From NCBI GenBank assembly GCA_002900995.3, contig CM035307.1:4092001-4156000 (forward strand): 64,000 nt of DNA, read 5' to 3'. Of the stretch, positions 10,641 through 63,997 are shown piece by piece; position 1 is the stretch's first letter; each line of letters starts with the position of its first letter. The stretch comes from Ganoderma boninense. Lineage: Eukaryota; Basidiomycota; Agaricomycetes; Polyporales; Polyporaceae. The notes under the pieces are model-generated. The model had not been told where the DNA came from. It worked only from the letters and a program-made list of their open reading frames with translations, and ran no database searches. A program made the translations under genes and the position numbers.

Positions 10641-13600
10641 CGCTCGCGGTTTCGGATTCGTCGTGCAAGGGACACCCGTAAGACGCTCCACAGGTTCAGT
10701 GGTGCACCTGCGTGAATGCTCTCCTCCTCGAGGTTCAGCAGTATCGTTTGGGATGGGAGGTCGGCGGCGATCGCGGCAGTTCACCGGCGTTCGGACCTTG
10801 GTGGCGGGCGGGTCCTCGTCAGGAACCATCTCGCTATCGATGTCCATGGGGACGTCATCCGTAGTAGTCTTGGTACGGGAAGAAAAGGCTTGCTGAGTGC
10901 TCGACGGCTGGCCGAGGAGCGTGGCTTGTGAATCACCCTGACAAAATGGTACAGCAGAGGTGACGATAGGACGGGGAATCGCAGCTCCGACAAAGAGCGG
11001 CGGCCTGTTGCCGTTTGACCACCCTGCGAGAACGCACTCAGTTATCACTCGATCGACACCGCGTAGCGTCCGAGTCACACGCACAGGCTTTGATCTCGTT
11101 CAGATACCGTTCCCCGAGCCACGCGAACGCGGGCTTGTCTTTCGTATAACCGTAGTAGTACCTAAACGGATCGTTCAATTGAGCAAATGATGAATGTTGC
11201 TGCAGAATGCAGGTGTATAGTACAGACCAAGCTGACGCCCGCATTCGCTGTTCGCGTCGCGTTTCCTCGTTTCCTCCTAATCGCGCCGCGTGGCGCACAA
11301 GTCAATCACCTGTCTCGAGCCTGAACGAGCAGAACGCGGACCTCCGAAGTATCGTGACTGATACAGCTGCTTCACTCTGTCCGCGTGCCGTGGCACGTCG
11401 CGATCTTGGCTATGCTGCGAAGCCGAACCGAAGTTCTCCGCTAGAATAGAGGCTGTGAGCACTGTCAAACGCGATGCTTGAGAATGGTGCCACACTTACC
11501 TGATTCTTGGTCGACGCGGATGGCCTGACAGAGCTCCTGATTGAACTTTGGAAGCGCCTTCACGGCCTCAGAGACGTGGTACTGCCACCGAGCGGGATCT
11601 TCGTCTCCGAGGACTAGGGCCTGGTCTTGCAAACCGTCCAGGTCTTTCAAGGGCTCGCTGTCTCCTTGCGGAATCATGTCGCGCAGTTGCTGGATCGGGC
11701 TCCGATACCCTGCCGGGTTCTGGCTCGCCCGAGCATGGCGAGAGCGAAGCGCCTTGAATCGCCTTTCGAGCTTTGCAGAATCTTCGCCAGATTTCATAAT
11801 GTCCTGTCGGGTCATGTAAGGGGGCATAGGTGTACAAAGGGAGCGAAGATACTGACCAGGGCAGACTCTACGAGTGGAACCAGTTCACGACAATACAGGG
11901 AATCTGCGAGCTCCGGCGTCAGCTCTACGTGTCGCATCCACTCGTTCGACATCATGCCGAGCAGCCTCGAGAACTTGAGCTGCATGAACGTGTCGATTGC
12001 CGCTTGCGGCATGTCTGAGAGCTGACGAGCCGGATGTTGTGTGGGTGCGGATGCGGATACGGAGGTGGCAGATGGCGTCCGGTTGAACGGGGGCGCCTCG
12101 CGAGGGGGGATGAGGGACGGGTTCCAGCAGACGAAGTAAAGGTCGCCATCGAGATCACCCGACGCGATCGTGTCCGGGACCGAGTGCGCCGCTGTCGCCG
12201 AGAACACTGCAAGGGTCTAAGTAAGACTTGTGGATCCGGTCAGGAACGATGCGATCTTACCGATGCAGTTGCGGTGGTGCCGGAGCAAGGGGTGGTCGAC
12301 CGCACGGAGCTTCCGGAAATCTACGGGTACTGTTAGGATGCAATGCTGCCACATATATGGAAGGCGGACTGACCGCCGGGGTGATAGCAGGGATTCCTAA
12401 AAGAAAGTTTGTGTCAGACCGGGACTGTTTGGCGTGATGGATCTGCGGTCCTACCGAGCGACGATCACATCTCTAACCAATACTCCACTCCGGCTCGGCA
12501 AGTTCACATAGACCTCATCGGGTCCCAGCACGCCTTCCTCGTCCACCACCCCGAACAAGTAGGCAGATTCATGTATCCTGAGGTTCATTTTGTTGCGCAG
12601 GGTGGTGAACTGTATCTTCTGGAACGCTTGGAGACGTTGCCTCACATATGGTTCCGAGAGTTCCTGCCGCGCCAACAGCATGGAATAGACTGCGATCGGG
12701 ATGTGAATGGCGTGAAACCAGATGGTAGAGAGAACGACTCACGGCCTTGTACGAACTCATCCTCTGCAGCGGCGTCCAGGTCGCCTTTGATGTAGTCCAG
12801 CGCCTTCTCACGATCAGTGAGAATGCTTGCGATGAGGTCCAGCTGATCTTGCACGAGCCTCTTGAAGACCTCAAGTGGCACACCGAGCGTCAGAAGTAAC
12901 ACCGTGAACTGGATATTGAGCCGTGCAGCGGCAGGCGGGGAATTATGGTTGTTCAGCTCGAGGACGGTCGGCCCACCCCCGTATTTGAACATCGAGGGAC
13001 GAAATGCGATCATGAAATGTCCGTTTCGCGCTTGGGGATGCTTCCTACAGTGTCGATCAAATGCATCGTCCGGGTAGCGAACGAGCAAGCCTTTGATGCC
13101 TCCACGTCGGATCTGAAATACTGCATAGGTGGTCAGACACAAAGAAACACTAATCTGTCTGCGACAAATGCCCCCATAGTGGTTGAGAAAGGACAGCACT
13201 CGAGAATTGAACATAATTGGTGTGGCATGGTGTAGACCTCTTTGGAGATGGCGGCAAAGGTGGCCTTAGAAGTTGCAAAGCCTTATAGGCCTGGATTGGG
13301 CCATTTAATATCCATTGAAGTGACTGAGTGGTCTATTGGCTTGCACCCGCCAATGGGGACGGAGATTTACGGCAGCCTGCGAACACGCCGTGTCATGCCC
13401 TTCAAAGGTTAACACGTACCTGTCGTATCGGGCGGTAGGTCATGCCGATTGCACACTTGGGCAGCGAAGGTATCGCGGATCATCCCGCAGCCGTCGCTGT
13501 GGAGAGACCCATCGGGAGCCAAGAGGTCGGGGATCTCAATTGCGCACTCGTGAGGGATCTGTGTGCATCCAACTTTAGCACACATTCCGAGGGAGGAAGA

Positions 13601-15920: not shown

Positions 15921-18496
15921 ATGGGCCACCCTGAGGAAGTCGATGTCGTCGTCTGCGGGTACGTTGAGACGGCGCCCCCACCTCTGCCCGCCTGACCATC
16001 GCAGTCTAACTATGTATGTCTGCGCCGTCTCTCCAGTGGTGGGCCCGCCGGGTCAGTCGTCGCAGGTCGTCTGGCCTACGCCGACCCCACCCTCAAGGTG
16101 ATGCTCATCGAGGGTACGTAGTACTTCACCTCTCGAAAGGTAGTCTATGGCTAACACGTCGAGAACAGGTGGCGCGAACAACCGTGATGACCCTTGGGTG
16201 TACCGCCCGGGTATCTACGTCCGTAACATGCAGCGCGATGGGATGTAAGCACCTACATTTTTATATTATTTTGCAACGAGTAGTGGTTAACGGTTTGACA
16301 GCAACGACAAGGCCACCTTCTATGTCGACACGCAGAAGTCCTCGCACCTCCGTGGCCGCCGGTCCATCGTGCCCTGCGCGAACATCCTCGGCGGTGGCTC
16401 CAGCATCAACTTCCAGATGTACACTCGTGCCTCTGCGTCTGATTGGGGTGAGTACAGCTTGCGTCCTCTCTCCTAAGACTGTTTCCGACACTATCCGTTC
16501 CAGACGACTTCAAGATGGAGGGCTGGAAAGCGAACGACCTTCTTCCCCTCATGAAGCGTCTGGAGAACTACCAGAAGCCGACGAACAACGACACGCACGG
16601 CTACGACGGTCCCATCGCTATCAGCAACGGCGGACAAGTCCAGCCCGTAGCCCAGGACTTCCTTCGGGCATCGCACGCAATCGGTGTGCCCTTCAGCGGT
16701 TGGTTTCGCATCCAAAAATGTTCCCACCCATTTTGAGGGCTCACGACTTTTGGCACAGACGATATCCAGGACCTCAAGACTGCCCACGGTGCCGAGATCT
16801 GGGCCAAGTACATCAACCGCCACACTGGGCGTCGGTCCGATGCTGCGACTGGTACGTACCACTTTCAAACTCCTTGTCCGAGTCTTCGTCAGCTCGCTCA
16901 ACGGTGTCACACAGCCTACGTGCACAGCGTGATGGACACGCAGAACAACCTGTTCCTCCGCTGCAACGCGCGCGTCAGCCGCGTCCTCTTCGACGCGAAC
17001 AACAAGGCGGTCGGCGTCGCGTACGTGCCCTCGCGCAACCGCGCGAACAACGCGGACGTGCTCGAGACCATCGTCAAGGCGCGCAAGATGGTCGTTCTCA
17101 GCTCCGGCACTCTTGGCACGCCTCAGGTAAGGGCGAAGATCGAACTCTGTGGAGGTCATGGGACGAACACTAACACTAACCGTGTCTTCCTCGGCAGATC
17201 CTCGAGCGCTCTGGTGTGGGTAATGCCGAGCTTCTCAGCAAGCTCAAGATCCCCGTCGTGAGCGACCTTCCCGGCGTCGGCGAGGAGTACCAGGACCATT
17301 ATACCACCCTCTCCAGTGAGTCCTTCGCGCTTCATCGTCCCTCCAGTGAAACTAACCGTGTGTCCCTTCCTTAGTCTTCCGCGTATCCAATGAGACGCAG
17401 ACCCTCGACGACTTCCTGCGCGGCGACAAAGACACACAGAGGGAGCTGTTCGCCGAGTGGGAGACGAGCCCCGAGAAGGCGCGCCTCTCCTCGAACGCGA
17501 TCGACGCCGGGTTCAAGATCCGGCCCACGGCGGCGGAGCTCGCGGAGATGGGCCCCGAGTTCAATGCGCTCTGGGACCGCTACTTCAAGGACAAGCCCGA
17601 CAAGCCGGTCATGTTCGGCTCGATCGTCGGGGGCGCGTACGCGGACCACGCGCTGCTGCCGCCGGGCAAGTACGTCACGATGTTCCAGTACCTGGAGTAC
17701 CCCGCGTCGCGCGGGAAGATCCACGTGCGCTCTGCGAACCCGTACGTCGAGCCGTTCTTCGATTCGGGCTTCATGAACAACAAGGCGGACTTCGCGCCCA
17801 TCCGCTGGAGCTACAAGAAGACGCGCGAGGTCGCGCGCCGCATGGACGGTGCGCGTTCTCCTTCTCCCCTTCACAACATTCTACCATCGACTGAGCGCGT
17901 TCGCTAGCGTTCCGCGGCGAGCTCGCCTCGCACCACCCACGCTTCCACCCGGACTCGCCCGCGGCTGCGCGCGACATCGACCTGCAGACCGCGAGGGAGC
18001 TGCTCCCGAATGGGCTCACCGTCGGGATCCACATGGGGACGTGGCACAGCCCGTCGGAGCCGTACGACGCGTCCAAGGTGCACGAGGACATCAAGTACAC
18101 GAAGGAGGACGACCAGGCGATCGACGACTGGATCTCGGACCACGTCGAGACGACATGGCACTCGCTCGGGACGTGCGCAATGAAGCCGCGCGAGCAGGGC
18201 GGCGTCGTCGACGCGCGCCTCAACGTGTACGGAACGCAGAACCTCAAGTGCGTCGACCTCTCGATCTGCCCGGACAACCTCGGCACGAACACGTACTCGT
18301 CGGCGCTCCTCGTGGGCGAGAAGGGCGCGGACCTCATCGCGCAGGACCTCGGTGCGTGCTATCTGTTTATGTCATATGTAGGTGCTTCGGGGTTGACTTA
18401 CGGTGGACTGTAGGCCTCAAGCTTCGCTTCCCTCACGCACCTGTCCCGCATGCGCCGGTCCCGACTGGCAAGCCGGCGACTCAACTCGTTCGGTGA
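15921..18496 (+). CDS. aox: Alcohol (methanol) oxidase, GMC family AA3_3
   Basis: FAD flavoenzyme oxidising methanol and other short primary alcohols to aldehyde plus hydrogen peroxide. In wood-rot fungi it recycles lignin-derived methanol and supplies peroxide. Eleven exons splice cleanly: 15921-15958, 16037-16113, 16169-16244, 16302-16447, 16504-16698, 16759-16851, 16915-17126, 17198-17315, 17375-17848, 17908-18351 and 18414-18496. The protein starts [20 protein letters not shown] (Rossmann GxGxxG-type loop), followed by [18 protein letters not shown], the GMC signature [34 protein letters not shown] and the C-terminal active-site region THSxGT-like [14 protein letters not shown] with [15 protein letters not shown]. 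The C-terminus [21 protein letters not shown] matches the insertion typical of basidiomycete enzymes. There is no peroxisomal SKL-type end and no signal peptide. The similarity to Gloeophyllum-type alcohol oxidase is very high from memory of the family. Confidence 0.97.
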
Positions 18497-23226: not shown

Positions 23227-25489
23227 TTCGAGGATGGGGGGATCCGTTAGATTTTGGACGAGTAGGGGATGAGGGAGATATGAGCTGACCTGCTGGCTTT
23301 CGGGTGAGTGCTGACCTTCTCGAGAGGAAGTGGAGAGAGGAGCAGTTCAGTAGCCGTTGCTCACGGGGGTCTCGTTTGCAGGGCTTTCGACGTTATTGAC
23401 GCTCTCACATGAAGTTCTTGGACAATGCATCCGCACGTGTATACCAATACCCACACACAAGTTTCTGTCAATATGTTATCGATATCTGGGCATGTCGCAA
23501 TACCATCTTGCTTGACTTGGAATGAATGGCACAAGACCCCTTCGTCTCGATATACATGGGTCTCATATCTCCTTTGACGGAAGGACGGGACGGAGGTTCT
23601 CCACAGTCTTATTGTTGAAGACTTGGCGAAGTAAAAACACAGCCAATTGGTCAGCTCGCCGACTTCAACGCTGTCATTGAGCGTAGCCGGCTCTCCGCAT
23701 CCGTGACACTGTTCACCGACGCGTATCGCGGAATGTGAGTAATGCTCTTTTGCCCTCCTACAAAGCCTTACGATGCGAACCTCGTCCTTTGGCACAGTAT
23801 TTGGAGCCGTCCATGCTCTCAGGTCATATTCAAGGGGAAGACACTACAGTTGAAGCAAGTCCTGCTGAGAGCTGTTAGCTTCGGCTATGGCACGCGAAGA
23901 CCAAGAGGGCGGTATCCGCAGTATTCCGATGACTAATGCTGTGGTGAGTATTCCATCCAGGCGAACCGTTTTCAAGCTTGTTTGCTACCTGCGCGCACAC
24001 GAGCCACCCAGAAACCTATCCTAGACATGGCGTCACGTTGCGTCCATGTGCGCCAAGGGCAAGAAGAGTGTATCCTTAAACCTCCTTTTGCACAGCCAAG
24101 TCCTCTTGGAACCCTGCCCAAGCACAACCGTGCCGCATCTCAGCAGTGTTCGGATAGAGTCCGAGTCCTGGTCAGCACGCAAGTTCCAATGATCCTCGGT
24201 GCCTGAGCCCGTAACCATGGATTCGGGAGTCGGAGGAAGAGAGCGTGTACAAGCCGGAGGTTATACTCCTACCAAGTAAAGAAATGTGGGCACCGGACCC
24301 AAGGTTGAACCACCGAGTTGTGTGCCGACCGTTCAACTCGGTAGAGATCATCCTCCTCGCCGCAATGCGATCCAAACACGGCGTCATCAGTCAATAGTTG
24401 GTCGCCCCACTGCACAGAGCACTAGTGCTGACCAAACATCCTCCTTCGTTTGCTGCGCGTGGGGAGCATGGTACACGTTGAGGCGGAGATCAGCATGGGA
24501 ATGCGCAGTAAAGTTCCCCTCGGACCTGCCTATTCCGCCGGGAGTCCGCTCGTCCGAACTCATCTCCGAGCCTGTGCGTCATAGAAGGTGCTTGGTTGTT
24601 TATGCATTGTTGGTCTATACTGACGATGGAGGTTGTAGTATGCCAGGATCGCTAGAATCAAGTATGACATAAAGGTCCACCCGATTGACTATAAAGGCCG
24701 CAGACTCCAGTTTCCTTAACATTCTCGACCAGCCAGACACGGCTGCAGGTTTTTCAAGAAAATCTCTCAGACTTGCCGTTCGTGGGCTTTGAAAAACTTT
24801 CCGTCTTACAGCCTTTGGCACCAGGTTCTTGATTCCCTTGTGTATCTCACCCCCCACCCGCAGTGAGAAACGTGAACTCATAATCTGTAGCCAAGCTTGA
24901 TCTATGGGAACATCTCCAAAGAAGACAGGTGACCGGACCTGATGTCGGACAGGACCCGAACGAACCTCAGAGGATCCAAGTTGTTAAAACTATCCAAGAC
25001 TTCACCGGGTACTGTGCATTTACACGTTCCGTGGCTGGACGCTGAGCCTTTCCCAGAACCACAAGCATGGATCTCTTCTCACAATGTTGTCGGGATAGGT
25101 CCCTCGTCCCAACACTGAGTCGTCCAGCGCATTGGAACAGCAGCTCAATAAATGGCTCGTCAAGTCAACACAGACATCACATTTGTAGGGTGTCAGCTTT
25201 GCAAAACAACTTGGCATTTGTCTTGCAGTACGTTTACCTCCGCTTCAGGACTGTCAGGATGTTTATTTTTAACCCATCGCAGCTACTCCCACAGCGATGC
25301 CAAGAACCTATGTTGAGCAGAGATCTCCTGCTGCGTCGTCTCCAACGCCGCGCAGAGAACGAACTTTTCTCAATGCCAAGGTAGTATTGCACCATCTCCA
25401 AGCGCTTTTAGCATGGATTCACCCCTGTTCGAAATTTAGCCACCTTTTGTGTGGAATGTTCTGGGCTACTCGATGGTGGTATAAAGAGG
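23227..25489. other. Intergenic region, no gene seen
   Basis: About 2.3 kb without coding-like composition, splice-consistent exons, RNA genes or clear repeats. The last part is the promoter of the secreted repeat-peptide gene. Confidence 0.55.
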
Positions 25490-25570: not shown

Positions 25571-27448
25571 ATGCAATTCAAGAACAACTTCGTCTTGCTC
25601 ATCATTGCGGCCGTCATCTCGGCTACCGCTGCTGTCCCCGTAAATCTCTCTTCCATCTGCCCATTCAAGCCTCACTCTTTGATGACGCTTGCACCCTTAG
25701 CTTCCGGGAGGTGTCGGCGTCGTATCTACCACCGGTAGTGTTATCGACAAGCCCTCTCTGAATGGCTTCCCGGTCCGAGGGAGAAGCCCCGTTAAGGTGG
25801 AAGCACGCGACCCGCGCCACGGCCATGATTCCGGAAGCCGTGGCCGTGGAGACAGCAGGAACCGCCGTGACGTGTGTTGATTTTTCCTACCCCAATGCGA
25901 ACACTGCTCACCCGTTTCTCTCCCCAGCTCGAGGCCCGTCGTCACGGCGGTGACAGCGGCAGCCGCGGCCGAGGCGACAGCAGGAACCGCCGTGGTGTAG
26001 GTCTTTATGACGAGTACCACATGCGGTGTGCTAACCACCTCATTATATAGCTCGAAGCTCGCCGGCACGGAGGCGACTCGGGTAGCCGTGGTCGTGGCGA
26101 CAGCAGGAACCGTCGCGCCGTACGTTCACATTCAAGTAGCGGTGCTCGTGTTCCCCACTCACCAACGGCATTCCAACAGCTCGAGGCGCGCCGCCACGGC
26201 GACTCTGGAAGTCGCGGTCGAGGGGACAGTCGGGTCCGCCGCGACGTACGCATGTCACACTCAATGCCAAATGCCATTCGTAACATCATCTGGTTTTCGC
26301 AGCTTGAGGCTCGCCGCCACGGATCCGGTTCTCGTGGACGTGGTGACAGCAGGAACCGTCGCTCCGTATGTTGATCTTTCTTTCCACCGACGTCCTTAAC
26401 AACTAACCGTCGACTTTTTAGCTTGAGGCCCGCCGCCATGGCTCCGGGTCTCGTGGTCGGGGTGATAGTCGGAACCGTCGTGATGTACGCCATTTCTTAT
26501 TTCTACTGTTGTGTACTCTCAACTGACTTCCATGATCCTTCTAGCTCGAGGCTCGCCGCCACGGCTCTGGCTCTCGTGGCCGTGGTGACAGCCGCAACCG
26601 TCGCTCCGTACGTCTTGTCTTCTGCCTTTTGGATTGAATGACCGTGAGCTAATTAGATGATATCCCAGATTGAGGCTCGTCGCCACGGCTCTGGTTCTCG
26701 CGGCCGTGGCGATAGTAGGAACCGTCGTTCTGTAAGTATCAGGAATTGTAAATATTACGACACCCTTTCTGAAGCCAACCTAACAGCTCGAGGCTCGCCG
26801 TCACGGTGATTCCGGAAGCCGTGGCCGCGGCGATAGTCGCAACCGCAGGACTGTAAGTCGTTTACATTCTAGGAGGTTTGAACGTCGGGCTGAGGTCAAA
26901 ACAGCTCGAGGCCCGCCGTCATGGATCGGGAAGTCGGGGCCGCGGTGACAGCAGGGGTCGTCGTGCCGTACGTTTCCGCTTCCGCGCTTTCTACAATTGT
27001 AAACTCAGTACTGATATATGTCTGCTCTAGCTGGAAGCTCGTCGCCACGGTTCCGGCAGCCGTGGTCGTGGAGATAGCAGGAACCGTCGCGAGGTATGTT
27101 TACAGTTAACTCGCGTCAGCCTCCTTTACTCACGAGACGACAAGCTGGAGGCCCGTCGCCACGGATCTGGGAGTCGCGGCCGTGGTAATAGCAGGAACCG
27201 TGGTGATAGCAGGAACCGCCGTGGCGTAAGCATTTCATTGCTCTCTCACACAAACCTTTCTGACGCATCGTGGATGTAGCTGGAGGCTCGTCGTCACGGA
27301 GGTGACTCTGGTAGTCGTGGGCGTGGAGACAGTCGGAACCGTCGTGGGGTATGTCCTTCTCTACTCCAAGTATCTTGATTGTGTTCATCTTTACCTTGTG
27401 TAGCTCGAGGCTCGTCGCCATGGGTCCGGCTCTCGTAGCCGTACCTAG
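25571..27448 (+). CDS. Secreted tandem-repeat peptide precursor, one repeat per exon (KEP/RiPP-like)
   Basis: Fifteen exons splice without a single frame problem: 25571-25639, 25701-25871, 25928-25996, 26051-26119, 26180-26245, 26303-26365, 26422-26484, 26545-26607, 26669-26731, 26787-26852, 26905-26967, 27031-27093, 27145-27225, 27280-27348 and 27404-27448 (360 residues). Exon 1 is a signal peptide (basic start, core FVLLIIAAVISATAA). Exon 2 holds a pro-region and a degenerate first repeat. Exons 3-14 each encode one unit (21-27 residues; consensus LEARRHGSGSRGRGDSRNRR plus one variable residue). Exon 15 is a truncated unit before TAG. Each full unit has RR after LEA and at its end, fitting Kex2 cleavage to 13-15-residue peptides H...N and four-residue X-LEA spacers. 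The architecture resembles Kex2-processed repeat proteins (repellents, dikaritin-type precursors), but the core sequence is not one I recognise. No modifying enzyme is obvious nearby. Confidence 0.9.
25771..27448 (+). repeat. Tandem exon-repeat array (14 units)
   Basis: Exon-intron units of about 110-140 bases repeat head to tail. The exonic parts are near-identical in protein and mostly synonymous in DNA, while the 51-63 bp introns are essentially unrelated beyond splice signals. Units differ by the insert G, D or GD before SGS (exons 2-5, 10 and 14), by the last residue (D, G, A, S, T or E), by a V or G in place of N in two units, and by an internal six-residue duplication in exon 13. Exon 9 starts with I instead of L. 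Thirteen of 14 units contain RGDS. Confidence 0.92.
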
Positions 27449-27862: not shown

Positions 27863-30800
27863 TCAGCTCTTCTTCAAGGCTTTTGGTTTAGCTGCGGCTT
27901 TGCCCTTGCCTGTGGCTGTCGCTTTGCCCTTCTTCGGCGCCTTAATGAGGCTGTCGTGTTCGGCGTCATCATCGACCTGCTTCTCATCTTCCTCAGCCTC
28001 TGGGACCTCGTCATCAACCTGAAAAGGTTGTCTCATTAAAACAGCGACGTCGCAACACAACACTGAGGCAATATACTTACATCGAAGGCTTCTTCAAGAT
28101 CTGGAGCGGGTCCTGCCGCTGCGATCTTCTTAGGCGCCTTACCGAGCGCTTCCGCCTTGTGGAACGCGACAGGGTGATCGCGTGAGTTGTACCTGGTTGA
28201 AAACATGTCAATGTCGGCAAACGAGACAAAGAATTTAAAAACATACTTCTTAGTGAATGACGTCTTTGTCGCAGTCGAGATCTTCTTGAGTACATTCCCG
28301 TCGATATGGTCGCCGACCCCGAGCTCGACGATGGTGTCCCAATCTTCGCGAGTGAGGAAGTACTCATCCATGAATTCGATGGTCTCATCTACCGCGCTCT
28401 GCAAATGATCGTCAATGTCAGCAAGCATTCAAGGATTGCAAGAAATGCGTACAGCTCCTTGATCCATTAACGGCTGGACAAGATGAGGGAACAGCGCTGG
28501 GATGTACGATTGCCTGATTTCGGACTTGTCTCCAGATGTCTTCAGTCGCATCCGGGCCTGGACGTCTGTCAGCTGGCGACTTAGCTTCGACTGCTTAGAA
28601 TTCTGCCCCAGCCATCTACAATTTCGGGTGAGTGAATCGCCGTATCAGCCTGAACGAAGACGACATACTGAGGGAACGACATCGCGTTCGGCCCGCCGTA
28701 CCCGGCGCCCCATCCCATACAGGAACGACGCAGGACGAATAGTCGAGCAGACGGCATGAAGCGGCATGAGCGACCAGTACTGGTTAGGTCCATGGATCAG
28801 ACTGTCGACCAAGTCGCCGTCCGATAACGATTGTGCTGCCTTGTCCATGAGCTCGAGGTGCTTCAACGTCTTCTCCGGCCCGTCGGCGTTCCGGATGCGG
28901 GAGGGCTGCGTCTTCAAGTAGTTCTCCTGCATGAAGAGCGGCACGAACGACGGGTCATGGAAGTACATCTCCATCTTGTCATTGAGCGTCTCGCGCGAGG
29001 TTGGCAAGAACATCCCAGGCCCAAGGATCTTGTTGATGACGCCGAACGGCGTCATGATGGTGTACTTCTCGTTCGCCTTTACACTGGAAGCGGTGTGTCA
29101 AGTCAGCCGCAATAACGTCGGGATTGTGTAGCACTTACAGGCTCTTGCCCTCGTCGAAGTCGATCGTATTGCTCGACAACCTCCATGTTGAGAGCATGTT
29201 CAAGACCTGACGGATGTCCGACTGTGCACCCTGAACCAGCTGGTCGACGACATTGGCCGGTATCTTCATCTTCTCCCTAATGCATCGTTAGTTGAACGCT
29301 CATCAACGCAGGGCGGACGAAAGACAAACGTACTTGAAGGCTATACTCAGTATCCTCGAGCGGATAACATTCGCCTCAGGACGCTTGAATGTGAGGTTGT
29401 ACGTCGCGTTGATGAGGGGCTTGAGCTTCTGTGCGCCGCGGTCGTTCGCAATGCAAATGATAGGGATCTTCGACTTCCTGATCAGAGCCGTGAGGGCGCC
29501 GACACCTCCACGGTCACCAGCGGACATGCCGTCGACTTCGTCCATAATCAAACAGGACTTGTCTGTGATTGTGACGCCGGCAGCATTCGTTTTCTACACA
29601 CCAGATAGTCATGAGCAAGAAAGGTTGGGCCCGACACATCCAACGGGACGTACCTTGCCGCCTCCCATCCAGCCATCGAGAGACGTATTCATGATGTTTG
29701 TGCTGTTCTGTCACCACATATATCAGGACGCCTCGCACAACACCAACCGGCTCCATGCCTACCTCGACGAGCTTCTTGCTCCTTGCATCGCTCGCGTTCA
29801 GCTCAATCGGCGTGAACCCTGCCAGCTTAGCACACAAGTGCGCACTCGTAGTCTTCCCGATCCCAGGGGGACCAGTAATCATGACCGCCCGGAACACGTT
29901 CATGCCCTCCTTGCCCGGCTTCTTGAAGTCGCTTTTCAGGCTCGCCGCCCAGCTGCTCAGCCAGCCCTGCAGCTTCTCGATCTGTCCCTTGTTCCCGCAG
30001 ATCTCCTTCAGCGTCTGCGGCGCGTACCTGTCCGTCCATAGCTGATTCCCTGCAACCGTCTTTGCTCCAGGACCCGCCGAGGACGCAGCGGCCTTCGCGG
30101 CCTGCTTCTCGCGCTGCTCCATTTCCTTCGCATTCTGCCTGATCGCCTCCTGCTCCTTCTCGATCTTCTTGCGCGTCTTGTCATCTAACATCGAGTCGTC
30201 CGTCACGCGCGTCGCGATGAGATTTAGGAATCCGTCCTCGTCGAGCGTCTTGAGCTTGTTCTTCTCGATCGCCTTGAGCTTGCTGGGCCCTGCATCTGCC
30301 CCTAGGATGACGTACGACGTCTTCGACGAAGGTTGGCCCACCACACGGCTGTAGACATGTCAACACTGCAAACGGCACGCGAAAGAAGAGTCAGACGCAC
30401 CCGCCGTAGCGCTTCGCGAGCTCGACCGCCTCGTCGCGCGACAGGCTGCTAAGCTCGCCCGTGAAGACGAACGAAAGGCCTGCGAGACAGTTCGGGTCCT
30501 CTGGAATGGGTATCTCTTTCGAACCTGGGGCTGATGGCCCTGCGCGCCCAGCCTTCATCGCGTACCAGCTGTAAACAAAGGTTAGTGGTCACCTTGCGAA
30601 TCCACCGCGGAAACGTACTTGGGCTTCTTCGCCGTGGCCTTGTCATCGTCCTTCGCAGGCTTCTTGTCGTCGGCTTTGACAGGCTTCTTATCCTCAGCTT
30701 TCGCGGACTTTTGATCCTTGGTCTCCGCCTTGGCTTTAGCCGTCTTTGCGGGCGTTGCCTTCGCAGGCGTCGACTTTGCAGGAGCCTTCTTCGCCGGAGC

Positions 30801-37679: not shown

Positions 37680-39730
37680 TTACATGTCTGCCAGCAGCTC
37701 CGTGCTGCTCAGTCTTCCCCTCGCAAGTCGTATCATCTCTTTCTGAAACTCCTCGTTGTATCCGACGCACTTCATCGACCATGCTTGGATGCTCTGCGGA
37801 GAGATGTTCAGCATAGGATGATCGTCACAGTAACCTATTAGACATACCTCCTCTCCAGAGTCAAGTGCCTCTCGGACATCTGCCAACGTGATATTCTTGA
37901 ACTTCCCCTGCGCATCCTCTACCTCCTGTCGTGTCGGCTCTCGACCGAGTGTCCGACGGAGGTGAATGCGTGCACGGACTGGGATCCCCCAGTTTCGCTC
38001 CGCGATCTCTTTTGGCCATATCGCGCGATTCTGCTATACCAGGTCAGCCCTCGGCCCGGGAATCGGAATTGAAGGTGCGTTTCGGTGCTACGCACCGTTT
38101 CGTGCATCGCGTCCCACTGCTCCACGGTCAACGGCGTAGCCCGACTCAACTCGTACTCGCCGAGGTACAGCCACTTTCCCTGTGCGAGCCTCGTAAACAG
38201 TACCTGCACGGGTGAATGCTTCGTGTTGGCTGTCCACGGGTCGCCCGGCCATACGGTGGTCTCGAAGAACAGTCCGCCGTGTCCGGGGATCTGCGGTCCG
38301 TGGGGGTTCCAGAGGAGGTTGATGCACATGAAATTGTCGTAGCCGTGCTCGGCGATGCGCCTCGCATTGGGTCGGGGAAACGTTTCCATCGTGTTGCCCC
38401 CGAAACGCTCCTTCAGATGGTCGCGGGTCACGGTGACGGAGCGCTGGCGCTCTGGAAGAGAGATGGGATAGGGACGCAAGGCGGCGGGAGCCAGGAGGTG
38501 CGCGACGTCTTCGTCCTTGAGGAGTAGCTCTTTTTTGACCTCAGCTTTGGGCTGCCACCACAGAATTAGCAACCAACTAGAAGTTCGAGATTATTGAAGG
38601 GGAGAATGCACGCACATTGGCCAGCTGTCTGACCACACTGTCTTGCACGCCCGCCGAAGACTGCGGATTAATTGTAGCATCCTCCGAATGAAGGGCCTGT
38701 TGAGATTCTTCTTCCTTTTTGGATGGCTTGGGGAAGTGAAGTCAGGAATGAAGCGTGCTAGTGGAGCAGATAATCAAAAGGTCTATTATGCTCACGGACC
38801 TCGCCCTTCCATTTCCTGGGTCGAGTCACGATGGGAACTCGCCTCGAGTCAAATTCTCTCGGAATCTCCGTGTCGATAGGCTTCGTATCGGGCTTCGTAT
38901 CCTGTGGAATCTCAGCTAATCAAGTCCTTGCTCAATCAAAAACAACCCACATGCTGATAGCTACAGGTACTCACCGGCATGGTTCAGCTTCCGCTGTTTG
39001 CGTGGCGAGCTTTCCGACAAGACATGGTTTTCAGCTTTCACCACAACTTCCGCTTTGGTCTCTCCAGCACTCTTCCTGTGGCGTTTAGGCTTTGGTCGAG
39101 GCGTTGGAAGCCCCGACGATCTCCACATCGGGCTCGGAATCAGTGAGCTCGATGACATCAGATAGATCCACTTTCTTCTTCTTGCGAGGCGGAGATGAAT
39201 GTACCCGCACAAAGTCTGGACGCAACGGCTGAACGGCGACTTCTTCGTCGGAGCCGTCGATCTCCATCGGCTTGGCTCGACTGCCGTCCGGCCCGTCATT
39301 GATGCCCTGAACCGCTCGGCCCCGTTCCCGCGAACTTCTCTCTATCGCCTGAGGAAGCATAAACATGGTAGAACGCGCGGCACCGAAGGTACGAGGGTGC
39401 GTGCTCACCAACACTGTATCCTTGCTGGGGCTAGCCGTCCTGGAAGATCCTTCAGCTAATGCTTGTCGTTCATAGCTCGCTAGCTGTTGCTTTAGAGCTG
39501 CAATTTCCGCATCTCTTTCCGTCAGTAGCCTGCGCAGGGCGCTGATGTCTTGTGCTTCTGGCTCTGGTATCTCCGCCCTTCGTTTTCCGTTCCTATACCT
39601 ATACTCCGCCGCCCACCTTCAGACATGAAAGAAAAGGCCGGACTCTAAATACGCACCTGCCTGCCCCACCATTGTGCCTTGGCAATGCCTTCCCATCATC
39701 GCCGTATTCTTCCTTGAATGGTGGCTTCAT
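37680..39730 (-). CDS. DUF6697-like protein with N-terminal coiled coil (copy 1)
   Basis: A basidiomycete-specific family of unknown function. The start at 39730 (MKPPFKEEYGDDGKALPRHN) splices at 39657/39598 into a short coiled coil (LLTERDAEIAALKQQLASYE), a basic/acidic linker with KKKKVDLSD and a TEIP-DTKPDTKP repeat, and then the conserved block: RFGGNTMETFPRPNARRIAEHG, FMCINLLWNPHGPQIPGHGG, LFTRLAQGKWLYLGEYEL, WPKEIAERNWGIPVRARIHL and AWSMKCVGYNEEFQKEMI. Stop at 37680. Introns recognised include 39657/39598, about 38578-38525, 38094/38032 and 37850/37797. Near 39090 the frame ending GASNASTKA meets the frame starting PKPKRHRKSAG with no usable intron, an apparent one-base frame break. A paralogue lies at 53.8-56.0 kb. 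The family name is from memory of the W(x)5G-Q/E-Y...CVGY pattern. Confidence 0.75.
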
Positions 39731-63969: not shown

Positions 63970-63997
63970 GGGGTGGGGGTGGGGGTGGGGGTGGGGC
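63970..63997 (+). repeat. G-rich minisatellite (TGGGGG)n at the window end
   Basis: About four to five imperfect units of GGGGGT on the plus strand up to the last bases. Four runs of at least four G allow a G-quadruplex on this strand; as a C-rich strand it would be the polypyrimidine side of the minus-strand gene. Confidence 0.85.

Follow-up and report, generated by a model that had tools for sequence, protein, structure and literature searches.

A short locus of the Ganoderma boninense genome (55.6 Mb in 74 contigs) raises the question of what is made from a run of small exons that repeat one arginine-bounded unit: a set of secreted peptides, an uncut repetitive protein, a precursor of cyclised peptides, or nothing at all. 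We analysed the 64,000-nucleotide stretch of DNA that holds the locus (the window), with its relatives in other fungi. We consider it likely that the gene encodes a precursor in the class of Kex2-processed repeat proteins (KEPs), belongs to a sequence family that is new, and would give linear hydrophilic HG..SGSRGRGDSRN peptides.

The exon array and its predicted peptides

The 15-exon gene model read from the sequence occupies positions 25571–27448 on the forward strand and, if spliced as predicted, encodes 360 aa: a putative signal-peptide exon, a leader with unit 1, twelve one-unit exons and a truncated last unit. In the model all 14 introns run GT..AG, lie in phase 0 and measure 51–63 nt, and each of the 15 exons has a length that is a multiple of 3. 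The complete one-unit exons (exons 3–14, n = 12) take the form LEA-RR-HG(GD/D/-)SGSRGRGDSRN-RR-X, and the model places the borders of these exons between X and L, which keeps each core and both of its RR sites within one exon. The features are as follows.

25480–25486, + strand: TATA-like box (tataaag), 91 nt 5′ of the ATG; by eye only
25571–25639, + strand: exon 1, putative signal peptide MQFKNNFVLLIIAAVISATAAVP; shape judged by eye, MQFK start recurring in relatives
25701–25871, + strand: exon 2, leader with VRGRSPVKVEARDPR, then unit 1 (HGHDSGSRGRGDSRN-RR-D); gene model, leader motif in relatives
25928–25996, + strand: exon 3, unit LEARRHGGDSGSRGRGDSRNRRG; gene model
26051–26119, + strand: exon 4, unit LEARRHGGDSGSRGRGDSRNRRA; gene model
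26180–26245, + strand: exon 5, unit LEARRHGDSGSRGRGDSRVRRD; gene model
26303–26365, + strand: exon 6, unit LEARRHGSGSRGRGDSRNRRS; gene model
26422–26484, + strand: exon 7, unit LEARRHGSGSRGRGDSRNRRD; gene model
26545–26607, + strand: exon 8, unit LEARRHGSGSRGRGDSRNRRS; gene model
26669–26731, + strand: exon 9, unit IEARRHGSGSRGRGDSRNRRS; gene model
26787–26852, + strand: exon 10, unit LEARRHGDSGSRGRGDSRNRRT; gene model
26905–26967, + strand: exon 11, unit LEARRHGSGSRGRGDSRGRRA; gene model, relative P0016 matching in order
27031–27093, + strand: exon 12, unit LEARRHGSGSRGRGDSRNRRE; gene model, P0016 matching in order
27145–27225, + strand: exon 13, unit with a 6-residue internal duplication, LEARRHGSGSRGRGNSRNRGDSRNRRG; gene model, duplication also in P0016
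27280–27348, + strand: exon 14, unit LEARRHGGDSGSRGRGDSRNRRG; gene model, P0016 matching in order
27404–27448, + strand: exon 15, truncated unit LEARRHGSGSRSRT and stop codon; gene model, weaker match of relative P0041

The first-pass annotation had placed a signal-peptide exon, 14 further exons and the repeat unit at these coordinates, and all are present in the sequence, the signal peptide by its shape. Its description of every one of the 14 exons as a full unit with two dibasic sites fits exons 3–14. It does not fit exon 15, which is truncated, or exon 2, where 39 residues precede the first HG, the leader ends FPVRGRSPVKVEARDPR and unit 1 opens with RDPR-HG rather than RR-HG. In exon 13 an 18-nt tandem duplication (27180–27218) adds NSRNRG.

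To predict the products, the spliced protein was cut at every dibasic site and the fragments were trimmed. This digest gives 12 HG peptides of 13–19 aa with RR on both sides (five of the 12 are HGSGSRGRGDSRN), one terminal 9-mer and 13 four-residue spacers of the form X-L/I-E-A; the unit-1 peptide would be released only if PR were also cut. Yeast Kex2 does cleave after PR in the K1 toxin. The first-pass estimate was up to about 13 peptides of 13–15 residues with four-residue spacers; the duplication in exon 13 gives one predicted peptide of 19 residues. Predicted masses M are 1341.62 for HGSGSRGRGDSRN, 1513.67 for HGGDSGSRGRGDSRN and 1456.65 for HGDSGSRGRGDSRN. No aromatic residue occurs in the predicted released HG peptides.

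In the spliced protein, 13 HG fragments that are 8 aa or longer lie between or after dibasic sites, and 12 of these have RR on both sides; the array thereby has the KEP architecture as worded in PMC7329392, which asks for three or more tandem repeats, each 8 aa or longer, bounded by Kex2 sites. The protein is of low complexity and hydrophilic and looks disordered. Neither it nor the relatives P0001–P0006 (seven proteins) contain a Pfam domain at E 0.1, and its first 169 residues match no solved structure at E 1.

Divergence and selection among the copies

The alignment comprised the 21 codons common to the 12 complete unit exons (66 pairs); it omitted exons 2 and 15 as well as the GD/GGD codons and, in exon 13, the 18-nt insert. 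Across these pairs pS was 0.69, pN 0.084 and dN/dS 0.048. Differences from the consensus amounted to 134 nucleotides, 105.5 silent and 28.5 non-silent, a sum in which serine switches between AGY and TCN are scored as non-silent steps; the silent share of 0.787 compares with a mean of 0.260 (sd 0.035, maximum 0.388) when differences were placed randomly in 5000 trials. Outside the free residue X, three of 240 residues depart from the consensus (one I, one V and one G). The rate at which two copies use different codons for the same residue is 0.578; a random deal of the codons gives 0.619 (sd 0.009). A slight common ancestry, not much, is therefore still visible. Adjacent exons are no more similar than non-adjacent ones (0.595 versus 0.575), the longest exact stretch common to two exons is 21 nt (median 10 nt), and introns 2–14 have a mean identity of 0.598 versus 0.551 when shuffled.

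Silent sites across the 12 full exons are near saturation; the array is not a young or homogenised DNA repeat, and its copies are old. As judged from these comparisons, each copy is kept by purifying selection. The short exons, the truncated last unit and the missing Pfam match are what a non-coding repeat, arisen by chance or decayed, might also present, a reading to which we give almost no credence in view of the strong excess of silent change, usable introns in 14 of 14 cases and relatives in several orders.

The silent-site result suggests a reason, open to test, for splitting a peptide array into exons. Unlike introns would leave only short shared stretches between the copies and so may have spared the array homogenisation or collapse; the copies could then persist, each under its own purifying selection, because the introns should prevent either outcome.

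Relatives across the Agaricomycetes

Three protein searches identified a family with RR-HG units, which is probably larger than seen because two of the three scored only the best 8000 candidates by word sharing. Genera represented among the named members are Lentinus, Cubamyces, Trametes, Pilatotrama, Grifola, Steccherinum, Phlebiopsis, Sanghuangporus, Ramaria, Sphaerobolus, Paramarasmius, Psilocybe and Gymnopilus. We looked up five of the species, and they are placed in five agaricomycete orders: Polyporales, Hymenochaetales, Gomphales, Geastrales and Agaricales. Among the candidates scored, the closest named protein matches are from Polyporales. E-values run from 7.4e-70 (Lentinus brumalis) to 4.0e-6 (Paramarasmius), figures that low complexity may flatter; for the weaker matches, those of Psilocybe (4.7e-4), Gymnopilus (0.014) and Phlebiopsis (0.15), membership is based on the repeat pattern. 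P0007, P0008 and P0048 (E 0.62, 8.4 and 1.9) were dropped as chance matches before units were counted.

Protein searches of the Ganoderma genome itself, with the best candidates scored, gave no convincing second copy, at a depth where a diverged paralogue could be missed. The first returned 15 matches, 13 at this locus and the others on contigs C10 (E 0.084) and C1 (E 6.5), where inspection revealed no repeat array; the second returned three, one at this locus and the others on C2 (E 0.16) and C7 (E 4.7); all six matches of the third were this locus. A DNA-level search with the unit pattern across the same genome was uninformative (370 + 358 matches versus 239 + 233 for the reversed pattern).

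The relatives share the start of the protein as well as the unit. MQFK opens 8 of the 16 annotated relatives, and the leader motif RGR(S/N)P..R(H/Q)G is found in 17 relatives and the window, among 46 sequences that include many fragments lacking the leader region; the form RGRSP..PRHG is common to many. PR stands ahead of the first core in 17 of the 18 leaders listed, P0017 having SR. The 46 sequences yield 112 pattern-found units. The core comes after RR in 90 of these units and after PR in 19, under a pattern that itself demands R before a two-residue set, and it opens HG in 105. Half of the Cubamyces units lack the second RR and carry SRSATVKT instead, and in some relatives units end LAK or LTK; the downstream site is therefore less conserved than RR-HG. 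Sphaerobolus and Psilocybe have a genuinely shorter core.

The core also contains RGD, which would suit peptides that mimic integrin ligands (GRGDS) and act against fungus-feeding animals: the 14 units of the array hold GRGDS 12 times and RGDS 13 times, and RGD lies near the core in 61 of the 112 family units. However, no RGD unit was found in Steccherinum (0 of 6), Phlebiopsis (0 of 4) or Trametes punicea (0 of 2), about half of the Cubamyces units have one, and RGD is thus not the family's common feature; moreover, RG-rich low-complexity sequence gives RGD easily. Our literature search found no paper making this link, and we regard such mimicry as very unlikely.

Many relatives are unspliced open frames on short contigs, with their introns showing. 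In 28 such frames, Q (a CAG acceptor) precedes 20 of 21 LEARRH or LQARRH starts, a count that is partly selected because a TAG acceptor would close the frame; the exception, in P0018, reads as lying inside an exon. At 33 pattern-found unit ends, V (a GT donor) follows after one residue in 22 and after two in 3, and is absent in 8, mostly of a subtype ending LAK, LTK or LAR. Judged from these reading frames, the unspliced relatives repeat the same intron borders. The annotated Lentinus brumalis protein retains one such intron as a V...Q stretch, and the Cubamyces-like P0013 and P0018 apparently have two units per exon.

P0016 follows exons 11–14 in the same order and carries the exon-13 duplication too, matching at 83% over 64 residues and 92% over 79 residues; its next-best long matches in the array reach 61.5% and 67%, and single units elsewhere reach 92% over 25 residues. 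The copy order therefore predates the split from this close relative. P0041 matches the 3′ end more weakly (46% over 93 residues, off frame). P0037 and P0038 had been position-matched by eye to exons 7–10 and 11–12, respectively, which alignment did not support.

A simplified count leaves 6 of the 16 annotated relatives with at least three HG fragments 8 aa or longer, although some of the others have a core that really is shorter. An off-frame unit signature exceeded all 500 shuffles of the same protein in P0002, P0003, P0004, P0024 and P0030, and did not exceed all of them in the other 11 of the 16. Read from the protein, some annotated relatives look as if they lose frame after a few units, with tails made of off-frame repeat units. 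The KEP survey described in PMC7329392 started from annotated proteins and would see such genes only in part, which suggests that surveys of this kind undercount exon-array genes. The L. brumalis entry OH76DRAFT_661961 may well be listed in the supplement of that survey.

Proposed processing, comparison with known systems and neighbourhood

We infer splicing, cleavage and secretion in vivo, the stabilising role of the introns and the biological role from the gene and its relatives. On the route that we favour, the signal peptide would bring the precursor into the secretory pathway, Kex2 would cleave after RR at both sides of each core and Kex1 would remove the RR, so that about a dozen linear hydrophilic HG(GD/D/-)SGSRGRGDSRN peptides and an equal number of XLEA spacers would be secreted. 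Kex2 is encoded in the genome: among the best candidates, taken exon by exon, one P-domain match lies at C3:3,557,608 with an S8 domain adjoining. PMC9769878 gives agaricomycetes three kex2 genes; here a single P-domain match stands among the best candidates listed. The encoded Kex2 and the architecture of the spliced model lend support to the KEP assignment made in the first-pass annotation.

The same low-complexity, hydrophilic protein could instead be secreted uncut, to serve as a structural or matrix protein rich in Arg, Gly and Ser whose RR-HG is simply one part of the repeat, and the second RR absent from some Cubamyces units and the PR at the first site would agree with this. However, RR or PR precedes 109 of the 112 pattern-found cores, Kex2 is encoded, a secreted protein with about 26 RR sites would be expected to be cut, and the structure search mentioned above offered no match. 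We consider an uncut protein unlikely.

The predicted precursor plan, a signal peptide with Kex2-bounded repeats, is also that of the dikaritins (the ustiloxin, phomopsin and asperipin precursors), a type of RiPP whose cores are cyclised by UstYa (DUF3328) oxidases, and the genome holds 19 UstYa (PF11807/DUF3328) matches. Dikaritins, however, have Tyr-containing cores and neighbouring UstYa genes, and neither is seen at this gene: none of the 19 matches falls in the 64-kb window, the nearest on the same contig (C4:862 kb) is 3.26 Mb away, and the cores are without aromatic residues. UstYa-type genes lie near 6.1% of Basidiomycota KEP genes in the account of PMC7329392. A dikaritin-type precursor is accordingly highly improbable, and linear, unmodified peptides are expected. 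The UstYa matches fall into groups at C4:835–862 kb, C6:2.56 Mb, C12:1.54–1.58 Mb, C11:2.08–2.28 Mb and C21:5 kb, which may mark true dikaritin-like clusters.

Within the KEP class, the gene most resembles in plan the Agaricomycetes KEPs of PMC9769878 (Coprinopsis KEP 497993, Pleurotus KEP 1091723 and Lentinula KEP 2599), with which it shares tandem dibasic-bounded peptide units, expected linear products and, going by the shape of exon 1, a putative signal peptide. Peptides of those KEPs were seen by mass spectrometry, and their sequences (such as QIPAELPTKSINGNIEPY or SGVAADW) are unlike HG..SGSRGRGDSRN. One unit per exon is a feature of this gene that the consulted text of PMC9769878 does not describe for its KEPs. 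A conserved Basidiomycota motif named in PMC6339444 is XSDW, and the widest KEP type, G-1/P-2, is Tyr-rich in the text description of PMC7329392, unlike the present core. Ascomycete alpha-type pheromone precursors likewise carry repeated secreted peptides freed by Kex2 and Kex1, but with STE13 (XA/XP) dipeptides directly before the core; here HG follows straight after RR, and the X-L-E-A spacer sits between two RR sites. Frog caerulein and bee apidaecin come from multi-copy animal precursors with repeated exons or acidic spacers, a likeness of plan only.

Text searches for RRHGSGSR, RRHGDS and SGSRGRGDS found no paper, supplements being outside their scope, and the statement that no described family has this core is to that extent upheld. 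Narrow multi-term text searches, a weak probe, found no paper joining the exon/intron plan with Kex2 or RiPP. The KEP class itself is known; neither the core nor the plan of one unit per exon was found in the paper text searched.

Mushroom secreted peptides are mostly uncharacterised. PMC9769878 reports that six Coprinopsis KEP knockouts had no phenotype in pure culture and that synthetic Coprinopsis KEP peptides had no antibacterial action; the knockouts imply that a role does not follow from the class. A core that is nearly fixed points to a specific extracellular partner; most likely the peptide would act outside the cell on a fixed partner, whether its own or neighbouring hyphae or another organism. 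Given a family in several orders, a nearly fixed core and predicted masses, its peptides can be sought directly. A broader reading is possible, and we put it forward tentatively: an ancient mushroom peptide family, partly missed by surveys as its arrays break gene predictors, in which unlike introns block homologous exchange, selection rather than homogenisation maintains each copy, and near-invariant cores, their N-terminal His-Gly exposed by Kex2, reflect one conserved partner (for instance a metal ion, a receptor or an integrin of animals). Since skipping any of exons 3–14 keeps the frame, splicing could, on this same tentative reading, set the peptide dose.

Pfam matches were obtained in 6 of the 27 window frames scanned (the other 21 gave none), an RFC1-like AAA piece among them, and none of the six suggests peptide modification. 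RFC1 is the large subunit of replication factor C. The neighbouring features are listed below.

12645–13265, − strand: RNA-dependent RNA polymerase piece (PF05183; Pfam), of the kind found in fungal RNA silencing
17356–17904, + strand: GMC oxidoreductase C-terminal match, open frame (Pfam)
28036–30359, − strand: RFC1 gene pieces, convergent and just downstream, with RFC1 C-terminal domain, Rad17/AAA and BRCT (Pfam)
37922–38590, − strand: DUF6697 domain (Pfam, E 6e-29)

Rfam and tRNA scans of the window returned no match. A GGGGTG hexamer repeat of 4.5 copies lies at the window's edge (63970–63996).
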